Shown piece after piece: positions 1-20,969 of a DNA stretch of 20,969 bases. The DNA comes from a virus. Below the pieces are notes generated by a model that saw only the letters and a program-made list of their open reading frames with translations, ran no database searches and was not told where the DNA came from. Within the stretch, counting starts at the first letter, position 1. Each line of letters opens with the position of its first letter. A program made the translations under genes and the position numbers. Location: the IMG/VR virus record IMGVR_UViG_3300031787_009157, positions 1 to 20,969 of that record. One strand, 5' to 3'.

Positions 1-510
1 TTGGAAATTGGGCTCTGAGGATGAGGACCGATACGTCCACACCAAATGCAGATTGAATGAAGGATGAATGAACCAATCGTCTCCACGCCGCACCGCAAGT
101 CTCTGGGTACCACGAAGGAACGTATTGCGGACCTTCTTCAGCTTCTCCAGCATCGACCACTTGCGAACGAACGGGAGATCGATGCCTTCAAGCGCCTCCG
201 CATCCGTCTTCGGCTTGCCGGTGGCCGTTCGCTCTTTGCACTCGACACCGAGATTGCCAAATATCACCCGAGCCAACTGCTCACCACTGCCAAGCGATGC
301 CTTCTCCCCGTAAACACGCCGCCATATTTTGTAGACCTCGTCTCGCCGTAGACTAGCTTCGATCTGCTTGATTTTTTCGCCAGCACCTCTCATGGTGCGA
401 TCAACGTGTCGCATGTCGACACGGATACCGGCCTCTTCGATATCTGCGAAGGCAGCCGAGCCCTCCATGAGCAACCGATACGCGGCGGGTGAAGAAGGCT
501 TGAAGATCAT
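1..510 (-). CDS. Family-A DNA polymerase, polymerase domain (partial, 3' end beyond window)
   Basis: The frame opens with ATG at 510 and stays open for 170 codons to the left edge, so the C-terminal two thirds are missing. Near the start it reads EGSAAFADIEEAGIRVD, then SLGSGEQLARVIF, and close to the edge HPSFNLHLVWTYRSSSSEPN. The last matches the family-A pattern HpsfNlhgTvTGRLSSsdPNlQ at the start of the palm/fingers region. No 3'-5' exonuclease domain is present here; that domain is encoded by the gene just upstream. The ATG overlaps the upstream TGA as ATGA, which suggests translational coupling. The protein is inferred to be the replicative phage polymerase. The TGR-type arginine motif is altered (WTYRSSSS instead of TGRLSSS), although the arginine remains. 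The family assignment is strong; catalytic aspartates cannot be checked because they lie outside the window. Confidence 0.88.
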   Translation of the reverse strand, partial: MIFKPSSPAAYRLLMEGSAAFADIEEAGIRVDMRHVDRTMRGAGEKIKQIEASLRRDEVYKIWRRVYGEKASLGSGEQLARVIFGNLGVECKERTATGKPKTDAEALEGIDLPFVRKWSMLEKLKKVRNTFLRGTQRLAVRRGDDWFIHPSFNLHLVWTYRSSSSEPNFQ

Positions 511-1706
511 CGGCACAGCATCTCTTTCTTCTGCTGCCCGGCGATGTGAAATTCCACCAACGAGTCCACGCCACAGTACACAAGCAGCGTTCGCGTATCG
601 ACTTCGCGAATCCTATTGAGCCCGTTCTCATCAGTGGACTTCAGATACGGAGCCACCGCCCATCCCCACTCCTCTTGCCCCAATCGGACGAACGCCTGGA
701 ACTTCACCGAGGTGATGTTGGGCCGACAGTCCAAATGATGAGCTGAGACCATCGTGTCCCATACCCAATTTCGAACACCGTGGCCAAGGATTCGCCGCGT
801 CCATCGCTCTTCGAACTTGTTGTTGGCACCCACCTTCGGCACTTTCGATCGAAGAAAGCGACCCATGGCCTCAACAGCTTCCCCCACCCAGGGAAAAGCA
901 ATCGTGTCCCGTCCTCGCCAACAGACCGACGCACACACGATCTCGGCATCCGCCGGATCTGGCTGTAGCCGATTGGTCTCGTAGTCGAATGCCATCGCCC
1001 CGCCATCTCGCACCCAGTCCTTCAACTGCGACGCCACCTCGCGGGGGTCCATCACAATGCGGATTTGCTTTTGGTAGTCGGGAACCTCCTCCCACGGGCG
1101 CCCTATCAACTGAAAAGCAGCCTTCAGATGCCGATCAAACCAAAGCTGCACGACAGCCCCTTCACGATCATCCTTGGCGTCTACGACATACGCGGGGTGA
1201 TATGTAGGACACACCCACGCATTCATCCGCTGGAGCGGAATCTTCCACCCGGCCCACTGCTCGATTGATCCCGTGTTCTCCTTCCACAAAGGCGACAACA
1301 AAGAAAGCACTGCCAGCGAGCCGAAGGGGATGATCAGCCGCGGCTTTAGATCGGCAAGGATCTTCGTGAGATTTGGTCGGCAGTACGAGACATGCTTAGG
1401 CGTGATGTCATCAGACGCGTTGCAAATGAGTGCGCTTGTCCGCCAGCAATCTCGATCGAGGTTGATGCCAATGAGAGCCAAAGACCGCCGCAGCAAGCGA
1501 CCGGCGTCACCAGTCAGGTGATCCCCGCGGGCGTCGTCCTCAGAAGTGATCTCATCCGAGATGATGAGCACACCCCGTCGCCCTTCCCCCATCACACCGA
1601 TCTTCGGAGACTCGCAGCGCGTATAGAACCCACACGCCCCGCACTTTGGCAGCAGCGATTGCGGTGCGCCCTTCGATGCCGTTCGAGTTGCTTCGAAAAA
1701 CCCCAT
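507..1706 (-). CDS. Uracil-DNA glycosylase (family 4-like) fused to Pol I-type 3'-5' exonuclease
   Basis: This is a two-domain protein of 399 residues. Residues ~20-200 resemble a family-4 UDG: four cysteines fit an iron-sulfur cluster (C22, C25, C95, C109, the last in CRPNL), GDAGRLL lies near residue 66, and TYHP at 168-171 matches the late UDG motif. Residues ~215-390 resemble the DnaQ/Pol I exonuclease: FDYE (D241, E243) is Exo I, NNKFEE near 295 lies where Exo II is expected, WDT at D317 is conserved, and YCGVD (Y377, D381) is Exo III. The protein ends there, without a polymerase domain, and the polymerase follows as a separate overlapping gene. I chose ATG 1706 because AAGGTG sits seven bases upstream; an ATG at 1730 would overlap the clamp gene more. 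Likely role: proofreading with uracil recognition or removal. Whether the glycosylase is active is unknown. Confidence 0.85.
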   Translation of the reverse strand: MGFFEATRTASKGAPQSLLPKCGACGFYTRCESPKIGVMGEGRRGVLIISDEITSEDDARGDHLTGDAGRLLRRSLALIGINLDRDCWRTSALICNASDDITPKHVSYCRPNLTKILADLKPRLIIPFGSLAVLSLLSPLWKENTGSIEQWAGWKIPLQRMNAWVCPTYHPAYVVDAKDDREGAVVQLWFDRHLKAAFQLIGRPWEEVPDYQKQIRIVMDPREVASQLKDWVRDGGAMAFDYETNRLQPDPADAEIVCASVCWRGRDTIAFPWVGEAVEAMGRFLRSKVPKVGANNKFEERWTRRILGHGVRNWVWDTMVSAHHLDCRPNITSVKFQAFVRLGQEEWGWAVAPYLKSTDENGLNRIREVDTRTLLVYCGVDSLVEFHIAGQQKKEMLCR

Positions 1707-1707
1707 G

Positions 1708-2739
1708 CTACTGCACCTTTTCGTCGTCATCCATCACAGTGCTTGTCGCATAGACGAACGAGCCCCCATCAACAAACAACTTCTCATTTGAGATACCGCA
1801 TCGTTCAGACTTGCGGGTGATCTCCAGCAGCAGCTTCGGCGAGATGAGAAAGCTGATCGGCTCGCCATCAAAGCTCACCCGCTTCATCTCCTTGAACCAC
1901 CCACTGGCACCCTCACCTGTAACGACGATTCGATCCGAACGGAGATCCACGCGCACCAAGTTGCCCGCCGCGTTCTCACCCGAGAATATCTCCGCTTTTG
2001 CCACCACCTCCGCAAGCCCACCCGGCAGCTCTACCGGCGTCGTGCCCTCGGCGGTGATGAAGGTGTCTAGCCTCAGGTAGTCGTCAAGGTATCGTCGGCA
2101 AGAAATGGTCAGCCCCGCCGGGTTCCGAAAATGAATCCACGATGGGGTCTCGCTCACCTCGGTCATGTCGAAGCCGCAAATGCGCTTGATTGACGTAGCC
2201 CGCACGAGAATCTCTTCCGCCACACCGGTCTTCAGGGGATATCGTGCGATCTGAAACCGGTCGCACGCTTCGATGTACCGCGGGTGGATGTGGACACACG
2301 TGAGCGTGAACTGATCGGCATCCGTACTGGCGCACGAATGGACAAGGGCAATTGCCTCTGAAAACTCCTGAGGCACCCGACGCCACTTTTCTGGAGTCTC
2401 CAGGACCTCAATGTCCAGCCGCACCTTTTCTTCCATGCGGATACCGGCCTTACGGCGGCCCTTGCCCCGCACGAGCAACTCGCCGTCAGTTTGCTCAATC
2501 AGGACATCGTCTTCTTTGAGCTGGGACAGTAGCTCAACCAGCGGCTTGGCCTTGACGGCGCCCTCGATCAGCAGAGGCGACTTGCGACAGCACGCGACTT
2601 CGTCATTGAACGTGAAGACCTGGCCATCGGTGAACACGTAACACGAGGACTGATCGATCATCTCGCGAGAAGACAAGCCCGGGCTCACCGACTCAAGGAC
2701 TCTCAGCAGTGCTTCACGCCCAACACGAACGGGTGCCAT
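1708..2739 (-). CDS. DNA polymerase sliding clamp-like protein (DnaN/beta fold), copy 1
   Basis: This 343-residue protein has the beta-rich pattern and approximate length of bacterial DnaN (about 370). FTFNDEVACCRKSPL near residue 45 resembles the clamp's first domain. The last third (VVAKAEIFSGENAAGNLVRV, followed by DRIVVTGEGASGWFKEM and FLISPKLLLEI) matches the third domain of beta clamps, where residues coordinate successive strands. It would encircle DNA and tether the phage polymerase. The start at 2739 has AAAGGACG just upstream. It lies 40 bases after the acidic protein gene and directly before the UDG-exonuclease gene, in the heart of the replisome operon. The canonical C-terminal MPMRL ending is not present; the tail is MDDDEKVQ instead. 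A second clamp-like protein is encoded at 12401-13516, and the two are clearly divergent. Confidence 0.78.
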   Translation of the reverse strand: MAPVRVGREALLRVLESVSPGLSSREMIDQSSCYVFTDGQVFTFNDEVACCRKSPLLIEGAVKAKPLVELLSQLKEDDVLIEQTDGELLVRGKGRRKAGIRMEEKVRLDIEVLETPEKWRRVPQEFSEAIALVHSCASTDADQFTLTCVHIHPRYIEACDRFQIARYPLKTGVAEEILVRATSIKRICGFDMTEVSETPSWIHFRNPAGLTISCRRYLDDYLRLDTFITAEGTTPVELPGGLAEVVAKAEIFSGENAAGNLVRVDLRSDRIVVTGEGASGWFKEMKRVSFDGEPISFLISPKLLLEITRKSERCGISNEKLFVDGGSFVYATSTVMDDDEKVQ

Positions 2740-2778: not shown

Positions 2779-4059
2779 CTATGCAGTCCGATAGGCCTCG
2801 ATCACCCAGAGAGCGTTCTTCAGGTAGTGGCTCGCCGTCTCGCATGGCTTGCCAAGCAGCTTGACGAAAAGGACGTGGCCCTTCTCATCATTTGCGTTCG
2901 GCCCATACTTCTTCACCACGGCGCCAGCCACCGAGTAGGACAAGCTCGCGTCAACCTCGCCACCCAGATACGACTTGATCGCGGCCTGGGCACCAACGAG
3001 ACAGACACGGGATTCTCGCGGATTGGCACGACCGTAGGCAGAGTCCACCTTATTGACGAGCTTGTCGGTGATCTCCACATCGATACCGGCCGCCTTGAGG
3101 GTGCGTGCAGCTTGATGCCATCGCGTGCTCTTCGCGGCGGTCTTCTTCGCTGGAGCGCCTGTCAGTGTCTTGCCTTCGTCATCAACAGGCACTGTCCGTA
3201 CCTTTTTGGCCACCGCAGTCGTCGCGGGCGACGACTCTGGCACCTCGATCGGTGCCGAGGTTGGCTCTGCGTTGCAGGTACGAACTCGGATCACGATCTC
3301 AATGACACCCGGCTCCGGGTTGGTCTGCTCAACTGAAAGCGGCAGGGCCGCCGCCGCAGCGATCCCTCCATGGCTACTTGGCGTTGCTACGTGGCAGTCG
3401 TCATCGCCGGGCCGCCCCGCTTTGACCGCCTTGCCCTTGCCAGGCTTCTCGGCCTTGGGGGGCTCGGCAGGCTCAACATCTGCACCATCAGAAGAAGCAT
3501 CGACTTCGCTGTCATCGTCATCCTCGTCTTCATTCTCGTCGCTATCCTCATCCTCATCTTCGTCTTCCGAATCGGAGTCATCCTCGTCCTCATCCTCTTC
3601 ATCGGAATCAGCGTCAGAATCGTCCTCATCGTCGTCCTCTTCGCCTTCGTCGTCATCTCCGTCTTCGTCCTCTTCCTCCGGCTCGTCATCACCGTCTTCG
3701 TCACTTTCGTCATCTTCCTCGTCGTCGGCCTCATCTGCGATCGGCTTGGCTTTGGTTTTCGCCGCAGGCTTGTCGGTCGCGTCGGGTGCTGGCTTGACTT
3801 TGGTCTTCGTCTTCGGTGCCGCTTCGGGCTCTTCATCGACGACCTCGATTGCCCCGCCCGCCTCGACTTGCTTCAGCAGCGCAGCGATATCCTTCGCCAC
3901 TTGTGGGTCTTTTGGAGTCGCCTTTGCATCGTCCAGGACCTCCGGGAGCTGGCTGATTTTTGAGAGCAGCCGATCGTTGTCCCACTTGTCCCCACTTTTC
4001 CACCCAGCGTGGCTGATCACTGCGAGCACACGCGATCGACTGATCGTCAACTTGGCCAT
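2779..4059 (-). CDS. Hypothetical protein with ~85-residue Asp/Glu-rich linker between two small domains
   Basis: I do not recognise this 426-residue protein as a named family. It has three parts. The N-terminal ~75 residues (start MAKLTISRSRVLAVISHAGW) are compact and mixed-charge. After a Lys/Pro/Ala-rich stretch comes a very acidic segment at roughly residues 108-195, almost entirely D, E and S. The C-terminal ~110 residues (from HQAARTLKAAGIDVEITDKLV) look folded and helical. ATG 4059 is preferred over 4113 because GGGG lies upstream at a normal distance and 4113 has no good site. The gene sits between the replicative helicase and the sliding clamp, so a replication-linked role is likely by context. 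Acidic tracts of this kind can mimic DNA or bind basic proteins, but here that is only inference. Confidence 0.8.
   Translation of the reverse strand: MAKLTISRSRVLAVISHAGWKSGDKWDNDRLLSKISQLPEVLDDAKATPKDPQVAKDIAALLKQVEAGGAIEVVDEEPEAAPKTKTKVKPAPDATDKPAAKTKAKPIADEADDEEDDESDEDGDDEPEEEDEDGDDDEGEEDDDEDDSDADSDEEDEDEDDSDSEDEDEDEDSDENEDEDDDDSEVDASSDGADVEPAEPPKAEKPGKGKAVKAGRPGDDDCHVATPSSHGGIAAAAALPLSVEQTNPEPGVIEIVIRVRTCNAEPTSAPIEVPESSPATTAVAKKVRTVPVDDEGKTLTGAPAKKTAAKSTRWHQAARTLKAAGIDVEITDKLVNKVDSAYGRANPRESRVCLVGAQAAIKSYLGGEVDASLSYSVAGAVVKKYGPNANDEKGHVLFVKLLGKPCETASHYLKNALWVIEAYRTA
3490..3735. repeat. Low-complexity GAT/GAG/GAC tract encoding the acidic linker
   Basis: On the plus strand this stretch is a string of tcatcctcgtc-like units, and on the coding strand it reads as GAT, GAC, GAG and GAA codons with occasional serine. 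Such trinucleotide tracts can expand and contract by slippage. The antisense frame is also open and would give a poly-serine protein, a by-product of the composition. Confidence 0.75.
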
Positions 4060-4137
4060 CGAATATCCCCTTTTCCAGGAAGTAGTGAGAAAACCACCGT
4101 CGTGAGACCACATACTACGAATCAGCTCTGAAAATCA

Positions 4138-6444
4138 TTACTGGCTGAAAATTATCGGCGACTCCAGATCCCGTGACCCCGCGAACCGGACGAAATCCTT
4201 GTCGTTGTATTTGGCGCCTCGACGAACAACCCAATTCAGACGGCCCATCCCAAGCCGCTTCTCGTCTGACGACACGTTGATGCCGATCATCCCGTTGACG
4301 TGCGCGAACTTGGTCCGTCGCCCCTGAAAATGTTTCTGACTGAGCAGGCCATCCATGCCGTAGGCAGTCGCCGACACCTGTGTAGCCGTGACGAGAAGCA
4401 CGCGAAGCTTCTGGGACAGCCGCCGGAGCTGGAGCCACGTCTCGTCAATCTGCTCCAGCTTGTCTCGAATACCTTTCGGCGGTGCGAGGATATCAGCGTA
4501 GTCCACACAGTTGTGAACTAATGCCCCCTGCACTGTGAAGCGATGAAGGGGTCCGGCGTTGACAATGTCCCACACGGGCGATTCTTTTGTCGCGGCAACC
4601 TCTTCTCCCACCGAGTCACAATCTGTGTCGCCGTCATGCCCCGCTGAAAAAAACGAAGCAGTGTCTGATCCGCATAACACACACCCGGATGCTGAATACG
4701 GAAACGATGCAACTGTGGCGTGAGAGGAGCCCGGCTTGTGTGCGCACAATTCTGACGCCTCGTCGAATATCGTATGTTCCCAGGCTCGTAATGGCCGTCG
4801 TTGTCGATGCGGTCGATCTCCTGTCCTTCGTTCGGCTCTCCCCCCAAATTCCCGATCATCCACAAGCAAGCCTCGGCAGGGGACGCAAACCGAAATTGTA
4901 TCCCCCTTCCCCCGTACCGATGCCAAGAGAGATCGTTCGGATTCTGGCAACGGGATCGCGCCTGCTGGACCCTCGCAAAAAACGCCCGAGAAAATCGAAT
5001 GGGCTGCAAACACTGGCGACAACCTTTCGCCAACCCGCGACGAATGTTTGCCAGCATCACCCATTTCGTATTGCGACACTGCACACACCGAACAAACACG
5101 TATTCCCTCTTGACGCTTTTCCCGCCCACTGATCGATACCGCCGAACACGAACCACCGATGAAATTATTTTCGACAAGCCGAATTGGCATCCGACCAGTT
5201 CCGGTTTTTGCGATTCGTAATCCCATTCGCTGGCTTTCGATAAGGGTTCTCCAACCTTTCTCCGAATAGACAAGGTGATCAGGGGTGGCTGTGATCCCGG
5301 CGTATGTGATGACACGACGAACTCCCTTGTAGACCAATCCACCGTGCGAAACCCATCGCACGCCATCCCATAATCTATCGCTACCTCGAATTTGTTCGAT
5401 GGGCACTTCACCCCGTTCAGTCAGAACCATCGACCCAGACGCCAAACAAACAACGTCAGAGCGCCAACCGTCGCGCGCCCACGCCGTCAACTGCCCTTCA
5501 ATGTCAGCGACAGACAGCGTGCCACTTGCGTGGCACGACAGCCGCACCGAATTGCGACCGCGGCATACTCGCCTGAACGTGCGGTAGGCGTCGATCGCCG
5601 CAACGCGCTTCAACTCGACATCGTGGAAAATCGGCAACTCGTCACCCTCCACCCACTCCGTCGGGATCGTGTACATCCCCGATCGCTTCGGCAGACCGGA
5701 AGCCCGCAAGGCTAACCGCTCCACGATCTCCTCTTCGATGGAATCACCAGCGTCAAAGAAAGCGACGTTGTTGCCAGCCCTCGCAGCTCGGTACAGCAGG
5801 TCGATGAGATACGCCGTCTTGCCAACCTTCTCGCCAGCCATGAACGCATGGAACGTGCCCCGCATGAAGGCATCGCCAATGAATCGACCGAGCACACCCC
5901 GGTATCGCACCAGCGCCCTCTGACGCGATGCGCTGAAGGCCTGCTCCCATACCGACACGTCATCGACAAGATCGGCGTACGCACCCGTGCCAAGGTTCAC
6001 AGGTGGCAGAGCGATACGCGCCGCAGCGTCTGCTATGCGACCCCGATCCAGGTCGATCTTGGCTTGCTCTATCTCCCGCTCAACACGTGCTTTGTTGAAC
6101 ACGTCAGCGGCGAGGTCGAACAGATACTGGGGGTTGTCGTGATCGATCTCATCCGACGCGTCCGACAAGTCGAACAGGAACTTCTCGATCGCCGCAACCG
6201 TCTTGTCGTCGGATTGCGTTGTGTCGGCCCACCGCTCATACAGGCGAACCATCCGATTGCCGGGCGCCTTCTGATACTTGCGGTAGTGCTTGATGATCAG
6301 GGCGCCGACCAGGTCCGCCCACGCCGCACCAAACAGCCCCTCGTCTACCCATTGCCCGGCAATGCGAGCACACACGATGTCGTTCGTGGCCATCGCAGCC
6401 AGCACTCGACGGGTGTCGGCGCCCTCGTACTTCTTCGTCTTCAT
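4138..6444 (-). CDS. dnaB: Replicative DNA helicase, DnaB-like, interrupted by an intein
   Basis: The open frame is 768 residues. Without the intein (residues 333-645) it leaves about 455 residues, the usual DnaB size. Residues 1-~165 form an N-terminal domain. Walker A is GEKVGKT, followed by VAFFDAGDSIEEEI at the H1a position. The intein splits the helicase just before Walker B, so that SDVV joins CVDYADIL after splicing. LLVTATQVS downstream corresponds to the H3 sensor motif (Q). The gene should unwind DNA ahead of the phage polymerase as a hexamer. Its ATG overlaps the stop of the preceding loader-like gene (ATGA), and the order initiator, small protein, helicase matches SPP1 genes 38-39-40. 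The intein, with its second-frame endonuclease, is listed separately. If splicing failed, the Walker B region would be broken. Confidence 0.88.
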   Translation of the reverse strand: MKTKKYEGADTRRVLAAMATNDIVCARIAGQWVDEGLFGAAWADLVGALIIKHYRKYQKAPGNRMVRLYERWADTTQSDDKTVAAIEKFLFDLSDASDEIDHDNPQYLFDLAADVFNKARVEREIEQAKIDLDRGRIADAAARIALPPVNLGTGAYADLVDDVSVWEQAFSASRQRALVRYRGVLGRFIGDAFMRGTFHAFMAGEKVGKTAYLIDLLYRAARAGNNVAFFDAGDSIEEEIVERLALRASGLPKRSGMYTIPTEWVEGDELPIFHDVELKRVAAIDAYRTFRRVCRGRNSVRLSCHASGTLSVADIEGQLTAWARDGWRSDVVCLASGSMVLTERGEVPIEQIRGSDRLWDGVRWVSHGGLVYKGVRRVITYAGITATPDHLVYSEKGWRTLIESQRMGLRIAKTGTGRMPIRLVENNFIGGSCSAVSISGREKRQEGIRVCSVCAVSQYEMGDAGKHSSRVGERLSPVFAAHSIFSGVFCEGPAGAIPLPESERSLLASVRGKGDTISVCVPCRGLLVDDREFGGRAERRTGDRPHRQRRPLRAWEHTIFDEASELCAHKPGSSHATVASFPYSASGCVLCGSDTASFFSAGHDGDTDCDSVGEEVAATKESPVWDIVNAGPLHRFTVQGALVHNCVDYADILAPPKGIRDKLEQIDETWLQLRRLSQKLRVLLVTATQVSATAYGMDGLLSQKHFQGRRTKFAHVNGMIGINVSSDEKRLGMGRLNWVVRRGAKYNDKDFVRFAGSRDLESPIIFSQ
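4510..5448 (-). other. Intein in the DnaB-like helicase (313 residues, Cys1...His-Asn/Cys+1)
   Basis: In the helicase frame the insertion begins with Cys at 5448 (CLASGSMVLTERGEVPIEQI, block A) and includes ITATPDHLVYS (block B, with the T-x-x-H pattern). It ends with the pre-terminal strand VWDIVNAGPLHRFTVQGALV (block F/G) and VHN, followed by Cys+1 at 4509-4507. These are the standard splicing residues: Cys1, block B His, penultimate His and terminal Asn, with a Cys nucleophile in the C-extein. The insertion point is the conserved Walker B site, a typical intein location. About 190 residues between the two splicing halves (roughly 5185-4595) show no recognisable domain in this frame and look like low-quality protein. 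The same DNA encodes an HNH endonuclease one frame over. Confidence 0.9.
4518..5099 (-). CDS. HNH homing endonuclease nested in the +1 frame of the helicase intein
   Basis: The frame one base downstream of the helicase frame encodes a typical phage homing endonuclease. It has a zinc finger of two CxxC pairs (VRCVQC ... GCRQC), then SRCQNPNDLSWHRYGGRGI at about 4899-4940 and EIDRIDNDGHYEPGNIRYST at 4762-4820. The tail ADQTLLRFFQRGMTATQIV resembles the C-terminal helical DNA-binding segment of such enzymes. Its stop TAG (4520-4518) lies three codons before the intein's last residue. The frame is open back to GTG 5411, but upstream it overlaps the intein's N-terminal splicing domain and is probably not coding there. 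GTG 5099 has AGAGGG five bases upstream and is my preferred start; a TTG or GTG near 5120-5170 would keep a few more homologous-looking residues. It would cut intein-less helicase genes. Frame-shifted remnant versus genuine overlapping gene cannot be decided here. Confidence 0.72.
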   Translation of the reverse strand: MFVRCVQCRNTKWVMLANIRRGLAKGCRQCLQPIRFSRAFFARVQQARSRCQNPNDLSWHRYGGRGIQFRFASPAEACLWMIGNLGGEPNEGQEIDRIDNDGHYEPGNIRYSTRRQNCAHTSRAPLTPQLHRFRIQHPGVCYADQTLLRFFQRGMTATQIVTRWEKRLPRQKNRPCGTLSTPDPFIASQCRGH

Positions 6445-6773
6445 CCCGCCGCACCTTCCGCTTCGTCTTGCTCTTCAGGGATGTCCAACTCGCGGCGTAT
6501 CCGATCCAGGGCGGCGGCTGTGTCCGGGCAGGGTGATGACGGTACCTCCCGATCCCCGCACACTTCATCGACCAACTGCAAAAAGTTTCGGAGGATGAAC
6601 CGATCGTGCTCTTTGAGATACCGGCGCCCGGCGTCTTTCAGAACAGCCAGGGGGACATCCGGCACCGACTCGGCCATCAGTTCAGCGGCGGCCGTACCCA
6701 GCCTGCGACCAAAACTGTCGGCGAGCGAGATCAGAAGCGAGACGACGTACGATCTCTGATCCCCTCTACCCAT
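6441..6773 (-). CDS. Putative helicase loader / replisome accessory protein
   Basis: This small protein of 110 residues (start MGRGDQRSYVVSLLISLADS) is mostly helical, with a charged tail (IPEEQDEAEGAAG). The segment LADSFGRRLGTAAAELMAES, then VPDVPLAVLKDAGRRYLKEH, has the look of the small loader-type proteins (the SPP1 G39P kind). That is a weak resemblance seen by eye, not an alignment. The context supports it: the gene sits between the initiator and the DnaB-type helicase, with an 8-base overlap on one side and ATGA on the other. ATG 6773 is chosen because GAGGG precedes it and because starts further upstream would run deep into the initiator gene. It could equally be an unrelated small protein. 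There is no ATPase motif, so it is not a DnaC-type loader. Confidence 0.68.
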   Translation of the reverse strand: MGRGDQRSYVVSLLISLADSFGRRLGTAAAELMAESVPDVPLAVLKDAGRRYLKEHDRFILRNFLQLVDEVCGDREVPSSPCPDTAAALDRIRRELDIPEEQDEAEGAAG

Positions 6774-12400: not shown

Positions 12401-13516
12401 CTACAGATCGCACGGCATGAGGATTGCCGAAAACCTCTCGCTACGGAAGAGCACCGCCGATCGCTTGTCCGTATATTCCACAGTCGCCCCGTTCTCACAA
12501 CCCGCAAGAATGTCGAGAAGGAATTGAGGATCAAGGCAAGTCACCATATCGCCGAAGTTTGCGGCGCATGGGGCGGAGTATTCTCCGTTGCCGTGTGCCA
12601 TGACCGATCCGTTCTTGAAATAGACACCCCTCGTCATCAGCGATGTGCACTTCGCAGCAGCCTTGACTTGATTGGTCAGCGATGCAACAGCATCGATCGT
12701 GAAACGCTGAGCATCGGGGCGATTGGGAAACACGTCTCGCCAGCGCGGGAACCGGCCTCGGTTCTGCGAGGTTGATACCGTCAGCGTGTAGTAGTCGCCT
12801 GGGATCGACCACAGCACCTTGTCTTCTGACCATTCACAATGCACAAGAGATCGTCCAGCAATTTTCTTGGGGGCAAACAGCTTGCTAGCAGATGCCACGA
12901 AGCGTTCAAGGGCCGGGGCAGGAATCAGACATTGCATACCCCTCGCGGAGCTGTCGACCGCAGGCCCGTCAAACTTGTGGATTCGTCGACCGTCAGAGCC
13001 AATCGCAAAGAATTCATCAGCGTTGCGGGGCTCGATCAAAACTGCGCCTAGGGCGTATCGGCTGGACTCCTGATCGGTGGCCGTGGCGACGGAATCTTTG
13101 ACGGTTTGCCACACGGCCAGCGTCGTGTCCACACCACCGGTTTCCACCAGCGACGGAACCGGAAGGGCGAATGAGGCCACGCGAGGTATCTTCGCGTGAT
13201 TGATGATGATGAAATCATCGTCAACCAGGATTTCGGCAGGCGCCTTGGAATGCGCAATATCGGCTACCACTTGACGTGGTAGCAGGATCACCGGGCAGCC
13301 AGATGCCCCGTCACCAGTCGTTACGGTTGCGGTCTCGTGGTTGTATTTCCACCGGGACGTGTCTCCGATGCGATCCACACCAATCGCGGATAGGGTGTAC
13401 CCGTCATCGCAGAATTGGAATCGAGCAACCGAGTATCCATCCCGGCCACAGCCGGGCTTGGGGATCGTCCCGAGAATGGCCGCAGCGGCACGGGGGTGGA
13501 TGACAGCAGTTTCCAT
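12401..13516 (-). CDS. DNA polymerase sliding clamp-like protein, copy 2
   Basis: The 371-residue protein has the length of DnaN and ends with SERFSAILMPCDL. This mirrors the conserved clamp C-terminus (yvVMPMRL), a sign of the third-domain terminal strand. Other clamp-like features are the alternating beta pattern, a domain junction near LPVPSLVETGG and NRPDAQRFTIDAVASLTNQV near residue 280, where clamps read (f.v.r.eLl.al..a). It is very different from copy 1 at 1708-2739, which lacks this C-terminus. It stands outside the replication operon. It could be an alternative clamp, a clamp used by late transcription or repair factors, or a decoy. ATG 13516 has only a weak ribosome site (GAGAAAGTGAG further upstream). 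Confidence 0.68.
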   Translation of the reverse strand: METAVIHPRAAAAILGTIPKPGCGRDGYSVARFQFCDDGYTLSAIGVDRIGDTSRWKYNHETATVTTGDGASGCPVILLPRQVVADIAHSKAPAEILVDDDFIIINHAKIPRVASFALPVPSLVETGGVDTTLAVWQTVKDSVATATDQESSRYALGAVLIEPRNADEFFAIGSDGRRIHKFDGPAVDSSARGMQCLIPAPALERFVASASKLFAPKKIAGRSLVHCEWSEDKVLWSIPGDYYTLTVSTSQNRGRFPRWRDVFPNRPDAQRFTIDAVASLTNQVKAAAKCTSLMTRGVYFKNGSVMAHGNGEYSAPCAANFGDMVTCLDPQFLLDILAGCENGATVEYTDKRSAVLFRSERFSAILMPCDL

Positions 13517-16149: not shown

Positions 16150-16887
16150 TCAGGACCGTATTCCGGACAGCTCGTCCAGGGCCAAGGAAGCCCAGTCCTT
16201 GGACCAGTGAGGCAGGATTTTGTCGATCCTGGCGGCTACGGGGTTCATGCCCGCCAGCCGCTCATAGCCACCCTCGCCCATCGCGGACAGGTGTTTGTTT
16301 CCAGTCGTGCCCCATCGGTAGACGAAACTCGGCCGCGAATCGTGTTTGATTGGGTCGAATCGAGCGATCTGCCGCTGAACCCACCGGCGCCGCAACCCCT
16401 GATCTTGCCCAGACTGCATTGCTGGGTACCCGTCCACGGTCGTGAAGGCATTTCGAGTGAAGGCCCACGCTGGATGAAACAGATGGCCGGTCATCTTGCG
16501 CTCTAAGTGATTCCGCTTGTCGATGTAGATGATGGACGGGATGGTGTAACCATCGTTGACCCCTGAGCGAGTCTCGATCGTCTTCGCGGCGGCTTCCATG
16601 TGCCACGGGAGATAGATGTCGTCGTCATCCCATACGCAGAACACACTCGCTTCCGGCGATGCGAGAGCCACCGAGGCGTTGCGCTTCTCCCCAAGGGTGC
16701 GGAAGCGGTGCTTCGTGGTGATGAGCTTCACCCCCGGGAGATGATCGGCTGCCTCAGGGGCATACTGCCCGGCGTCATCAAGAATGACCATCTCTTTGTC
16801 GGGATGGGTTTGCCGGAGAAACGACTCAACAGCTTCGTTCAGGAGACTGGGTCGTTTGTAGGTTGAGCAGACGGCACAGATGCGCAT
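16150..16887 (-). CDS. Glycosyltransferase family 2-like protein
   Basis: The product is 245 residues. MRICAVCSTYKRPSLLNEAV, then ESFLRQTHPDKEMVILDDAG, is the typical N-terminal GT-A nucleotide-sugar-binding start, and ASVFCVWDDDDIYLPWHMEA carries the DxD-like metal site. GKRNASVALAS between them is also family-typical. It should transfer a sugar from a nucleotide donor to a phage or host product, and is the last gene of the decoration operon. ATG 16887 is chosen from GGAGACCTC before it; the frame continues to 17250 but that part is a shadow of the upstream gene. The gene overlaps the previous one by 49 bases. No membrane segment. Confidence 0.82.
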   Translation of the reverse strand: MRICAVCSTYKRPSLLNEAVESFLRQTHPDKEMVILDDAGQYAPEAADHLPGVKLITTKHRFRTLGEKRNASVALASPEASVFCVWDDDDIYLPWHMEAAAKTIETRSGVNDGYTIPSIIYIDKRNHLERKMTGHLFHPAWAFTRNAFTTVDGYPAMQSGQDQGLRRRWVQRQIARFDPIKHDSRPSFVYRWGTTGNKHLSAMGEGGYERLAGMNPVAARIDKILPHWSKDWASLALDELSGIRS

Positions 16888-17708
16888 GAGGTCTCCGATC
16901 CTTTCAGTTGGAATCCGTGGTCGATGCGATCGACCAGAACCCCGTTGTCTTCCACCATTTGAAATCTGTGGCTCAATATACTCGGCATCCGCACCCTTTC
17001 TGGCTTGCGGCGGATCGGATTGTGCTTGTCGGTCAGCAATATTCGCATGGCTTCGCGATGGGCCTCTTCCGGTGTCGGTACCGCCCCGTACACCAAACGA
17101 CGACCGCTCTTCATCTGGGATCGGATCGTGTGGCGTTCGATCAGCCTCACGTCGCTCTTCACCCCTTTGGCGTGAAGGAACAGCACTTGACCGGAGGCTG
17201 CTCGTTTTCCGGACGCGAATGGGTATGTGTACGTGTCTTTCATCCGCCATTCAAGGTCGGTACATACCGCTCGATTCACGTAGGCATGGCACTTGTCGTA
17301 ATGGGGATGAACCCAACCGCGCCCTGTGCCGTGGTGGAAGTCACCTACAGCCTCCATCAGCCCGAGCATTACAAATCCGCTTCGAGACCTGTTCGCGATG
17401 CCCGGCAGTTTTCGCAGTTGATCGACTTGCCATTCGCAAAAAATGTCATCGGCGTCGATGAATAGCAGATGCTGGGCCGCCGTTTCTCGCATCAATCGAT
17501 TGCGCGCCTCACACCAACCCACCCCATCGTTTCCAACTATGGCGGTCACATTCGGATGCTGGCATAGCAAGTGATCCAGCACCGGCATCGTGCGATCTTC
17601 TGCGGCGTCAACGTAGACGACCACCTCGTCAACGAACGGGGCTATGGCCGGGATGGAGAGCGAAAGGCTGTAGTCGTCATTCGCCGACGGCATGAGAACC
17701 GTGAACAC
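16839..17708 (-). CDS. Glycosyltransferase family 2-like protein (GTG start)
   Basis: The product is 289 residues. From the start: MFTVLMPSANDDYSLSLSIP (reading the GTG as Met), EVVVYVDAAEDRTMPVLDHL, WCEARNRLMRETAAQHLLFI and DADDIF. The last is the DxD-like motif of the GT-A fold. GTG 17708 lies one base after the TGA of the methyltransferase gene (17712-17710) and has AGAGGCG upstream, which fits coupled translation; an ATG at 17693 is the alternative. The ORF to 17774 would overlap the methyltransferase. Role: sugar transfer in the same operon. Acceptor unknown. Confidence 0.78.
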   Translation of the reverse strand: MFTVLMPSANDDYSLSLSIPAIAPFVDEVVVYVDAAEDRTMPVLDHLLCQHPNVTAIVGNDGVGWCEARNRLMRETAAQHLLFIDADDIFCEWQVDQLRKLPGIANRSRSGFVMLGLMEAVGDFHHGTGRGWVHPHYDKCHAYVNRAVCTDLEWRMKDTYTYPFASGKRAASGQVLFLHAKGVKSDVRLIERHTIRSQMKSGRRLVYGAVPTPEEAHREAMRILLTDKHNPIRRKPERVRMPSILSHRFQMVEDNGVLVDRIDHGFQLKGSETSCASVPSAQPTNDPVS

Positions 17709-17709
17709 G

Positions 17710-18297
17710 TCAGGCGCGCCTCTTGAGCATGAAAGAAGGGGCGATCTGATATTCGGGACTCGATGCAATCTCAACCAATTGCCAATCCAGACCCGCGCAG
17801 AAATGCTGGACGGCGTCGATCACGCCGAATTCGCTGATGCGGGCGAACTTGCTTGTTTTTGGCGACAGGTAGTCGTGGCCCATGATGATCCCGCCGGGCT
17901 TCACAATTCGATTGCATTCGGTGAGATCGTACAGGCAGGCGTCCTTCCGATGATCGCCGTCGATGTACGCCCAGTCGCAGCAATGATCCGGAAGCAGGGG
18001 TAGTTGATCCTTGGAGAAGCCACGACACAGAACCACCCGCCCAGACTCGATATCCGGCCCAAGCCGCTCTTTGGTCTGTGCGAGGCCCTTGGAGTGCTCC
18101 TCCGGCGTGTCGTGAGCCGACCAGTTAGGCAATCCGGATGGTTCCCAGGGATCTACCAGATAGAGCTTTGTGGCTCCGGTGACCCGCAACAGGGTTTCGG
18201 CGTTCTCACCAAACTGCACGCCGATCTCCAGACCGACCCCATTCTTGGGCAGGGCTTCGTAGAACTGGGCACGGGTCTTTCGGGTCAGCTGTATCAT
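17710..18297 (-). CDS. SAM-dependent methyltransferase (class I, Methyltransf_24-like)
   Basis: The product is 195 residues. GVGLEIGVQFGENAETLL is the SAM-binding glycine motif, KLYLVDPWEP is motif II-like, WAYIDGDHRKDACLYDLTEC is motif III-IV, and VKPGGIIMGHDY follows as in small-molecule or sugar methyltransferases of this type. It likely methylates a sugar or peptide made by the neighbouring glycosyltransferases; the substrate is not known. ATG 18297 overlaps the upstream stop as ATGA. GAGGTAG lies ahead of it. Confidence 0.85.
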   Translation of the reverse strand: MIQLTRKTRAQFYEALPKNGVGLEIGVQFGENAETLLRVTGATKLYLVDPWEPSGLPNWSAHDTPEEHSKGLAQTKERLGPDIESGRVVLCRGFSKDQLPLLPDHCCDWAYIDGDHRKDACLYDLTECNRIVKPGGIIMGHDYLSPKTSKFARISEFGVIDAVQHFCAGLDWQLVEIASSPEYQIAPSFMLKRRA

Positions 18298-18977
18298 GTG
18301 ATCACTACCTCATCTGGTTGAACGTAGGCTAGGGTTTGAAACAGAACGGCGTCGACATCGATCGGGTGGTTGAGCGCGAAGGCTGCTTGGCGGATGGCGT
18401 TCTGATCTTCGTTTTTCGTCGTCGGTACGTCGACGGCCCTACTATACAGTTCAAGCATCTCTTTCCGACGGCCAATGACGCCACCCGAGTTGCCGAATCG
18501 ATACAGCCCGCGGTCGGGCTCCTGGATCGGGCAGAACGGAGGCCATGAGTTCTTCTCGCCGGAAATCAGCACGTCGGCGTCGATCGAATGGAACCGCTCA
18601 AGGATCGCATCGGGGTGCGCGTCGAAGATCACGTCCGTTGCATCCGAGAACAGGTACCACTCGTGATTGGTGGCCTGCATGTATGCCAGGGCTAGGCTCG
18701 TCTTCGCGCGGTTTTGCCATGGGTGCCGATCCTTGCCGAGTATCTCGTAGTCGGCGCCAAGGATCTCCAGTGATCTCGCGGCGAGGGTCCGAGTCTTGAG
18801 GTTTGAGAAGATGCCTATGTGGAGCGCTGACCGCTTGTGACGCTGCGGCGTCAGTCGCAGCTCAACCTCGCCCAACAGTCGGGCCGCTGTCGCACAGTTC
18901 TCTTTGCTCAGCACCTTGGGCCCACCGTTGGCGTGTAGGTGGAGCGGATTCGTCCCGGTCAGTGTGTTCCTGATCAT
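18294..18977 (-). CDS. PLOD1-like glycosyltransferase (GT-A type)
   Basis: The product is 227 residues. In order it contains HIGIFSNLKTRTLAARSLEI, DYEILGKDRHPWQNRAKTSL, ALAYMQATNHEWYLFSDATD (DxD-like), LISGEKNSWPPFCPIQEPDR, LYRFGNSGGVIGRRKEM and NEDQNAIRQAAF. This series (sugar-donor binding, FsDAtDvif, GEkNsWP, fgNSGgviG, tkNEDQ) is the pattern of the collagen-type galactosyl/glucosyltransferase (PLOD) glycosyltransferase domain, also found in giant viruses and phages. No lysyl hydroxylase domain is present. It should add a sugar to a virion or host acceptor. The ATG overlaps the upstream stop as ATGA. Confidence 0.82.
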   Translation of the reverse strand: MIRNTLTGTNPLHLHANGGPKVLSKENCATAARLLGEVELRLTPQRHKRSALHIGIFSNLKTRTLAARSLEILGADYEILGKDRHPWQNRAKTSLALAYMQATNHEWYLFSDATDVIFDAHPDAILERFHSIDADVLISGEKNSWPPFCPIQEPDRGLYRFGNSGGVIGRRKEMLELYSRAVDVPTTKNEDQNAIRQAAFALNHPIDVDAVLFQTLAYVQPDEVVIT

Positions 18978-19624
18978 TCGAACCTCACTGTTTTACGGCC
19001 CCACCAGTTGGCTGCCTTTTTGTTCTCTGGCATCTCCAGGTGAAAGGCGCGATACGTGGGAATGATGCGACGCTTGGATCGGTGCCACGACCTCGACAAC
19101 AGCATGTCGTCCTTGGCGGCGGTGGCGCTGGCTTCGGGGTAAGCCTGGGGCTTCGTAGGGTAGTGCCACAGTTGGCAGTACCCAGATGGGATCACCGTCT
19201 TGTTGTGATAGACCATCGGGATCGTGTGGCTCGACACGTCCTCGCCCTGGAGGACCTGCTCATAGGCCGCGCGACCAATCACTGCCCGGCGCTCGACCGT
19301 ATGAAGGCACTCGCGGTCTAGGGTGTTCACGTCGATCGGCTTCGTAAACAGCATGTCGGCATCAGTGATGAGCAACCATCCCCGGAGTTCTAGATAGACT
19401 AGGCCCTGGTTGATGGCCCTGCCTTTGGCGAACGGGGCGCCGTTGGCGAAGAAGGCGTCGGTCTGCACCTTGATGGCCTTGGGCACCGAGTCGATGACCC
19501 TGACCGTCTCCCAATCAGACAGGGAGGTCACGACTACCACCCGATCCACCCATGCCGCAAGATGCGGGAGGGTGCAAGCAAGGTAGTCGGCGTAGTTCAC
19601 GCAAGTGACAACCGCCTCGATCAT
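18974..19624 (-). CDS. Predicted glycosyltransferase (GT-A-like)
   Basis: The product is 216 residues. It begins MIEAVVTCVNYADYLACTLP and HLAAWVDRVVVVTSLSDWET, then GRAINQGLVYLELRGWLLIT and DADMLF. The last is a DxD-like motif in the expected GT-A place. SGYCQLWHYPTKPQAYPEAS is later. Proteins of this shape are small single-domain transferases in phage decoration clusters. ATG 19624 overlaps the stop of the upstream GT4-like gene as ATGA, and the ORF to 19657 is not favoured. No transmembrane segment. Confidence 0.8.
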   Translation of the reverse strand: MIEAVVTCVNYADYLACTLPHLAAWVDRVVVVTSLSDWETVRVIDSVPKAIKVQTDAFFANGAPFAKGRAINQGLVYLELRGWLLITDADMLFTKPIDVNTLDRECLHTVERRAVIGRAAYEQVLQGEDVSSHTIPMVYHNKTVIPSGYCQLWHYPTKPQAYPEASATAAKDDMLLSRSWHRSKRRIIPTYRAFHLEMPENKKAANWWGRKTVRFE

Positions 19625-20655
19625 CCTTGATTCAGCTCCGTGAGAATCCTTTCCCACCCAGCCCAGATCGTGTTTGGATTGGCTAGTTCCTCAACCCATG
19701 CCCGGCCAGCCACCGCCATCCTGTATCGAAGATCTTCGTCATTGGCGAGCATTGTAGCGTAGCTCGACAGCTCTCCATTGTCGTTCGCCAGGAAGCCGGT
19801 TTCGCCATGCCTCACCATCTCTTTCCAGCCCCACTGATTTGGCACGACAAGTGGCACACCGGAAGCCATGGCCTCAAGGCCGACGCGGGGCCAGTTCTCG
19901 CGCGCCGATCCGTTCGTGGTGACCATGCAATGGATTCGTCGGAGATACTCCGGCACTGAAAGCATCTGGGGTTCCAATGCCCTGCCCCACGTCGGCGAGG
20001 GCCCGATCTTGGAGCGGGTCTGATCGTTCACCCCCATCACCAGCGCTTGTCGATTTGGGTGGTCGATCGCCGCGTAGATATCCCACAGATCCTTTGGCCA
20101 CTTGTCGAGTGAGGGGCGGGATAGGCGGCCGACTACAAAGGGATCGGCGGCTGTCCGTGCCTGGTAGTCAAACGGGAATTCGGTCAGATCGAACGCCCCG
20201 CGTATGAGGTGCCCGATCTCTGGGCGATAAGACGACCCGATCATCGATCGTTCGAGTTCGGCCCGCTGAAATTCCGACTGGTAGATGAATGCCGCTGGCA
20301 TCCCGTGCGCGAAGAAGTTTGCCTTCTCAGCAGGGAATAGGAAACTCATGCAGTTCAGCCACACCAGCTTGACGCCCATGCGCTTGAGTTTTGGCCAGAT
20401 GCGGTAGACATTGCTGTTGCACATGCCGATGACGATCGAGCCCCGTAGGGGTCCAAAGTCTTCGATGCCCTCTCGTGTGATGTGGTGAGTCTCGCATCCG
20501 ATAGCAGCGAGCTTGGCTTTCCAGTTGTCGTCTTTGCCCCACGTCGGGATCAAATGAACCTCGACGCCATTCGCGCGTAGCATCTTCACCGTATGCCAGC
20601 ACTCAGTACCGGCTCCACCGAGGCCCGCTGGATACCCGAGCAGAAACACTCTCAT
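19621..20655 (-). CDS. Glycosyltransferase family 4-like protein
   Basis: The product is 344 residues. The start MRVFLLGYPAGLGGAGTECW is a GT-B type N-terminal glycine-rich turn. FVVGRLSRPSLDKWPKDLWD is the middle GT4 motif (grl...kg...li), and GSARENWPRVGLEAMASGVP, then LVVPNQWGWKEMVRHGETGF, is the E-x7-E donor-binding block (here the E residues of RENWPRVGLEAM). It should transfer sugar from UDP- or GDP-linked donors with retention of configuration. ATG 20655 follows AAAGGCAAACG; the frame to 20748 is a shadow of the upstream protease. The ATG overlaps the protease stop as ATGA. Confidence 0.87.
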   Translation of the reverse strand: MRVFLLGYPAGLGGAGTECWHTVKMLRANGVEVHLIPTWGKDDNWKAKLAAIGCETHHITREGIEDFGPLRGSIVIGMCNSNVYRIWPKLKRMGVKLVWLNCMSFLFPAEKANFFAHGMPAAFIYQSEFQRAELERSMIGSSYRPEIGHLIRGAFDLTEFPFDYQARTAADPFVVGRLSRPSLDKWPKDLWDIYAAIDHPNRQALVMGVNDQTRSKIGPSPTWGRALEPQMLSVPEYLRRIHCMVTTNGSARENWPRVGLEAMASGVPLVVPNQWGWKEMVRHGETGFLANDNGELSSYATMLANDEDLRYRMAVAGRAWVEELANPNTIWAGWERILTELNQG

Positions 20656-20969
20656 CGTTTGCCTTTCAATCTGACGGCGTCGCGGGACAGAAATTCCCGT
20701 AGGCGAACGGCCGAGCACCCACAGGATCGCCCATCGGCATAGCCGCACACAATACCGGCTACCTCGCCGCGATCGTTGAAGAACGGCCCGCCCGAATCAC
20801 CATCTCGCGCGTGAGCGTAGGACTCCAAGAACTCGTCGATGCCCAGATCATCCGGCGAGACGTAGCCGGATAGGGCGCCCGGTGATTCCCGGTAGATGTA
20901 GGGCGGAGGGCCATAACCGGCGATGATTAGGCGGTCTCGGGGGCGGGGGTTGGTTTCCGCGAGCCGGGC
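20652..20969 (-). CDS. Trypsin-like serine protease, C-terminal part (5' end beyond window)
   Basis: The frame is open from the right edge to a TGA at 20654-20652 (105 residues). ARDGDSGGPFFNDRGEVAGI, then VCGYADGRSCGC, contains GDSGGP (20784-20801), the active-site serine block of chymotrypsin-like proteases, followed by the substrate-binding strand. The catalytic His and Asp should lie upstream, outside the window. The stop overlaps the start of the GT4-like gene, so it is co-transcribed with the decoration genes. Known phage head-maturation proteases usually belong to other folds, so a trypsin-like one here is uncommon. It could process a virion protein or act on a host protein; this is inference. 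The ending GKR carries no obvious sorting signal. Confidence 0.78.
   Translation of the reverse strand, partial: ARLAETNPRPRDRLIIAGYGPPPYIYRESPGALSGYVSPDDLGIDEFLESYAHARDGDSGGPFFNDRGEVAGIVCGYADGRSCGCSAVRLREFLSRDAVRLKGKR

Follow-up and report, generated by a model that had tools for sequence, protein, structure and literature searches.

A putative homing endonuclease gene overprinted out of frame within a phage helicase intein

In a phage contig, a virus record of 20,969 bases that was analysed over its whole length (hereafter the window), the gene for a DnaB-like helicase carries an insert that is, judged by its motifs, a class 1 intein with the appearance of splicing competence, and the same DNA encodes an HNH endonuclease in another frame. 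We consider it very likely that this is a mobile class 1 intein and that the HNH gene is a separate one, overprinted in the +1 frame between the splicing blocks and in part running across them. This reading draws on the computed architecture, its conservation, the hand-off between frames, stop avoidance, the modelled folds, an empty site and a co-conversion tract, and it takes splicing, internal translation and cleavage to be probable. The helicase gene and its intein comprise the following features.

6444-4138, minus strand: DnaB-like helicase including the intein (phrog_19 match, E 2.7e-11)
5449..6444, minus strand: N-extein, DnaB-like replicative helicase up to Walker B (...WRSDVV; phrog_19, E 2.7e-11), the site being placed from the sequence and its relatives
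4510..5448, minus strand: intein, 313 codons, with class 1 blocks, namely Cys1, block B TPDH (T55, H58), block F WDIVNAGPLHRF, block G VHN and Cys+1
5194..5448, minus strand: residues 1-85 of the intein, forming the N-terminal half of its Hint splicing domain (pLDDT about 95-97 to residue 80; substitutions at intein codon position 3)
4603..5193, minus strand: dual-coding middle, with the intein frame open, disordered and unconstrained and the HNH frame constrained (substitutions at the HNH wobble position)
4510..4602, minus strand: C-terminal portion of the Hint domain with blocks F and G, covering intein residues 283-313 (modelled with a pLDDT of about 95-97 from residue 291 onwards)
4138..4509, minus strand: C-extein of the helicase, first residue Cys+1 (CVDYADIL...)

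The splicing domain and the nested frame

The intein begins with Cys1 at nt 5448 and closes with Asn313, which ends at 4510, before Cys+1 at 4509; its frame runs through 313 codons with 0 stops, and it is inserted in the Walker B motif, between DVV and CVDYAD. The residues C1, T55, H58 and N313 are invariant across 53 relatives, and D294, N297, G299 and N313 of the intein are invariant as well. The marks of a class 1 intein are thus present in Cys1, a block B TxxH, a C-terminal His-Asn and Cys+1, together with a predicted Hint fold and the absence of the insert from a close homologue (L289) at this conserved motif.

In the AlphaFold2 model of the intein-frame protein, pLDDT reaches about 97 in the two terminal parts and falls to 40-54 over the greater part of residues 90-280, and the ends match solved mini-inteins with a Foldseek probability of 1.00 (Mtu RecA, Ssp DnaB and Npu DnaE). 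The HNH-frame protein, modelled from an alignment of 56 sequences with one GenBank-derived row left out, has a mean pLDDT of 86.6, with a low-confidence N-terminal tail where it overlaps block B. The models accordingly predict a confident Hint domain, a disordered middle in the intein frame and a well-folded protein in the HNH frame, whose features are as follows.

4518..5315, minus strand: HNH endonuclease gene, +1 frame, 265 aa, with a predicted GTG start at 5315 (the exact start is a prediction) and the stop TAG 4520-4518 within block G codons
5322..5328, minus strand: predicted Shine-Dalgarno sequence AAGGGAG for the HNH gene, in intein codons between blocks A and B (duplex -7.9 kcal/mol)
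5010..5087, minus strand: zinc-ribbon cysteines C77, C80, C99 and C102 of the HNH protein (C99 invariant, the other three at least 90% in 58 sequences)
4776..4814, minus strand: HNH signature DRIDNDGHYEPGN, residues 168-180 (D168, R169, Y176 and N180 invariant)

Between the preceding stop (5423-5421) and the next one (4520-4518), the +1 frame runs through 300 codons within the intein without a stop. The doubly open stretch, which a preliminary description of this DNA had put at about 190 codons, is therefore about 300 codons long and reaches from near the intein start into block G. The +1 frame matches two PHROG HNH families, phrog_374 (E 6e-19) and phrog_3377 (E 6e-17). In the viral structure library BFVD, its model finds matches among predicted HNH proteins of phages; the protein thus has both the profile (phrog_374) and the fold of an HNH homing endonuclease. 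A Pfam HNH_3 match was obtained for only 4 of 58 relatives, and sequence and fold searches of the PDB gave nothing significant for the HNH protein. The first position of the signature is an invariant Asp168-Arg169 (DR), and the canonical catalytic His is absent. Catalysis by this protein is thus putative, as the signature starts with Arg rather than His and no PDB match was obtained.

Several other genes of the window can be recorded here. Two different genes, at 1708-2739 and 12401-13516 (minus), both match phrog_947, the family of DNA polymerase processivity factors. A DNA polymerase-like protein (phrog_17) at 507-1730 (minus) ends at 507, and a second open frame at 1-516 (minus) overlaps it by about 10 nt and runs to the contig end; the two may represent a split or frameshifted polymerase. 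A run of genes at 16150-20748 (minus) resembles glycosyltransferases and a methyltransferase, an impression from the sequence except for the phrog_2675 match at 17710-18297.

Related inteins and the translation of the HNH frame

A census of the relatives of the window intein, as distinct from inteins at large, found 224 inteins, 148 of them non-redundant. The HNH frame is offset by +1 in 123 of these and by +2 in 6; of the other 19, 18 are mini-inteins of 120-187 aa that lack an HNH, and 1 is a copy cut by a contig end. The proposal in the preliminary description, that an HNH endonuclease gene lies out of frame in an intein that looks capable of splicing, thus holds and extends to these relatives. 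Homologues with an in-frame endonuclease, the observation that would have spoken against it, were also searched for, and none of the 148 related inteins has the in-frame HNH of a canonical fused endonuclease intein. Because the first family set had been found with the HNH or the full intein and was open to search bias, a second set was fetched with the N-terminal 66 residues only; the result of the census was unchanged.

In tblastn searches with both frames, the +1 offset reappeared in two Streptococcus phages (Javan113 and Javan255), in Gardnerella phage AB1 and in many phages known from metagenomes; the offset is constant across inteins that are about 30-40% identical. Two divergent +2 inteins whose C-terminus was missed by the profile have intact C-termini. 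Judged by the flanking residues, the insertion sites vary, several of them lying in DNA polymerase A and others in several motifs of helicases; the Walker B site is occupied by an HNH-bearing intein in four other helicases (L006, L007, L088 and L089) and, at the identical position, by a 171-residue mini-intein without HNH (L149). As the out-of-frame HNH is common to more than 100 related phage inteins, it represents a conserved two-layer arrangement and not a sequencing error. It is likely, in our estimation, that a phage intein lineage occupying many DNA polymerase and helicase sites carries its homing endonuclease overprinted and, within this sample, never fused.

Some individual members deserve mention. 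The linker of the L149 mini-intein (L149:2139-2651) resembles the start of the L089 HNH region, as if the HNH had been deleted and the intein frame kept. The +2 members are L182 (Sodalis phage SO-1), L184, L185, L189, L191 and L031, and include Salmonella Jerseyvirus DNA polymerase inteins; they form one group on the HNH tree, with a support of only 50. Two inteins per locus, each with an out-of-frame HNH, occur in L018, L019, L126 and L131; those of L019 bear two different HNH types, and for the upstream intein of L018 the open frame covers the N-terminal part alone.

Sequence features near block B suggest that the HNH protein most likely has a translation start of its own, located within the splicing domain. 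Among the candidate starts of the window, GTG 5315 has the strongest Shine-Dalgarno pairing (-7.9 kcal/mol, against -6.3 for 5099 and 5129); its Shine-Dalgarno sequence is imperfect and its start codon is GTG. An internal start had already been suggested, probably correctly as to its kind, with GTG 5099 as the candidate; this codon is an unlikely choice, for it would remove the conserved strands of residues 48-72 and the nearly invariant Gly46, and GTG 5315 pairs better.

Across the family, a Shine-Dalgarno match of at least 5 nt with an ATG or GTG in the +1 frame near block B was found in 76 of 122 elements, compared with 26 +/- 3.6 when the intein codons were synonymously resampled. The commonest form, AAGGAGGT, consists of Lys-Glu-Val codons and is followed by an out-of-phase ATG in the next Tyr codon, and in most members the HNH stop lies in or near the codons of block F or block G. 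With start signals, and often stop signals, within splicing-motif codons, one stretch of DNA would yield both a self-removing protein and an independent homing enzyme. The start signal is also present in 10 of the 18 HNH-free mini-inteins and is thus partly due to conserved intein sequence or recent ancestry; this weakens it as proof of internal initiation, which it supports without proving.

Alternatively, ribosomes translating the helicase/intein frame might enter the HNH frame by a programmed +1 frameshift, which would give an N-intein-HNH fusion without internal initiation. Both frames lie on one mRNA and the offset is +1 in most members, as this mechanism would require, but we regard it as improbable: the signal of Shine-Dalgarno sequence plus start in +1 is enriched about threefold over a null that preserves the intein protein, the offset is +2 in 6 members, and in about 20 of the 122 members the HNH frame opens only at least 2 codons after the block B His, which for those members excludes a common upstream shift site.

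Selection, mobility and origin

Stop avoidance was assessed by holding the HNH protein fixed and shuffling its synonymous codons, with 20,000 shuffles for the window. Over 205 HNH codons, the intein frame of the window has 0 stops against a mean of 8.6 expected and was stop-free in 0 of the 20,000 shuffles; the third frame contains 5, where 6.5 are expected. The stop-free intein frame is not due to chance. The same holds across the family, with 0 stops in the intein frame of 121 +1 elements (1,032 expected) and of four +2 elements (9.9 expected), that is, 0 in total against about 1,042; the third frame of the +1 elements has 1,336 stops against 1,272 expected. Free-standing HNH relatives contain stops in both alternative frames in 50 of 50 cases.

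Codon-position statistics across homologues, which the preliminary description had called for, bear out the two-frame reading. For 18 pairs of related elements (70-98.5% identical), substitution rates were computed by intein codon position (1/2/3), of which position 1 is HNH codon position 3. They amount to 0.14/0.09/0.38 for the N-terminal block, 0.38/0.18/0.13 for the middle and 0.11/0.05/0.23 for the C-terminal block (chi-square p 1e-114). The ends therefore evolve as intein and the middle as HNH. Because pairs and elements have ancestry in common, the p-values given here measure strength rather than independent trials. Both frames are under selection, in different places.

Evidence of mobility comes from a closely related phage without the intein (L289), which reads DVT-L-VDYADIL where the window reads DVV-[intein]-C-VDYADIL. 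The flanks of the site are 98.5% identical upstream (2,484 nt compared) and 96.9% identical downstream (2,838 nt). Of the 5' differences, 21 lie in the 100 nt closest to the insertion, as against 23 in the following 2,300 nt (Fisher p 1e-18); the first 400 bases of the 3' flank differ in the Cys+1 codon alone. The tract concerned is as follows.

5449..5575, minus strand: co-conversion tract 5' of the insertion (helicase sense), with differences from L289 out to 127 nt

A one-sided tract of foreign flank is the expected trace of homing by gene conversion, and we read this as a probable recent gain of the intein in the lineage of the window; the empty site and the 5' tract appear to fit HNH-driven homing. 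Elsewhere, a 444-aa protein at 2779-4113 (minus) has a long Asp/Glu-rich low-complexity stretch, which coincides with a hot spot of divergence from L289.

Taken together, the helicase mRNA would be read in two ways. Frame 0 would give the helicase with its intein, which should splice out, and an internal start within the splicing domain (here GTG 5315 with AAGGGAG) would give a free HNH endonuclease. This enzyme would cut or nick the Walker B site of related phages that lack the intein, whereupon the intein and a short 5' flank would be copied in during repair. Selection on the intein frame would preserve the splicing fold at the two ends and require the middle only to be stop-free, thereby constraining the HNH frame.

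It is very improbable that the HNH frame represents a relic, decaying or without function and open by chance. Substitutions at the HNH wobble position dominate the middle in 18 of 18 pairs, the signature and zinc residues include invariant positions, and the co-conversion tract adjoins the insertion; moreover, the +1 frame of the HNH-free mini-inteins contains 1-10 stops.

The preliminary description had also raised two compensating indels as an origin, and an in-frame fused HNH intein broken in this way, or by sequencing error, would account for the meaningless look of the middle of the intein frame. This origin is refuted and has next to no probability left: the offset is kept across the divergent inteins described above and is identical in 123 non-redundant ones from many environments and from isolate phages (Javan113/255, Gardnerella AB1 and APSE-1), with no in-frame member among the 148. 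The landing of a free HNH gene in a mini-intein fits better and may be the origin; a tree of nested and free HNH proteins has 5 label changes, on too few alignment columns for a count of origins. A group I intron with an HNH gene, removed at the RNA level, has a similarly negligible chance: the Sodalis phage SO-1 record does annotate a homologue as a 'type I self-splicing intron', but the splicing blocks of the window intein are complete, the extein frame is free of stops and the modelled fold is that of a Hint domain, and a search for a catalytic RNA core gave no Rfam match in 4000-6600 even at E 1.

Known systems and implications

In canonical endonuclease inteins, carrying a LAGLIDADG enzyme (e.g. 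PI-SceI) or an in-frame HNH, the endonuclease is fused in frame with the splicing domain. The window intein shares with them the Hint domain, the position of the endonuclease between blocks B and F and, probably, homing into an empty allele, but its endonuclease is a separate overlapping gene. Free-standing phage HNH proteins (PHROG 374 and similar) have the same signature and a similar predicted fold; unlike the window gene, they are not nested, and stops abound in their other frames.

The closest parallel in print is the ShiLan domain, an out-of-frame HNH hidden in a phage DNA methylase insertion (Arsenault, Gosselin and Gogarten 2025, PMC11855218), in which the authors found no intein splicing motifs and predicted the insertion to be retained. 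ShiLan resembles the window in its out-of-frame HNH, an insertion that leaves the host frame open, a homing-like distribution and a translation that is unexplained (PMC11855218). In the window, by contrast, the host of the HNH is a full class 1 intein with a Hint fold, the predicted start lies inside the splicing domain and there are more than 100 members. The presence of splicing blocks sets the window apart from a ShiLan-type insertion, which lacks self-splicing domains.

Members of the architecture already stand in GenBank with an HNH CDS annotated as overlapping a DNA polymerase: P46 within P45 of APSE-1 (L183:2931-3353), and gp39 within gp38 of Sodalis phage SO-1 (L182:2578-3336), the latter labelled a group I intron. 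These records show the overlap and do not describe an intein with an out-of-frame endonuclease; a literature search confined to journal articles, with few subscription titles among them, found no paper on such inteins as a class.

Textbook inteins are bifunctional, with the endonuclease fused, and here two genes share the DNA instead. This separates the dosage of the enzyme from that of the host protein, turns the middle of the intein frame into a stop-free passenger, and explains why annotators caught one gene and missed the other. It also offers a simple route for mini-inteins to become mobile. With about 125 non-redundant cases and a clean frame hand-off, the family constitutes a large natural data set for the evolution of overlapping genes and a system in which the internal initiation of translation inside a coding sequence can be tested.
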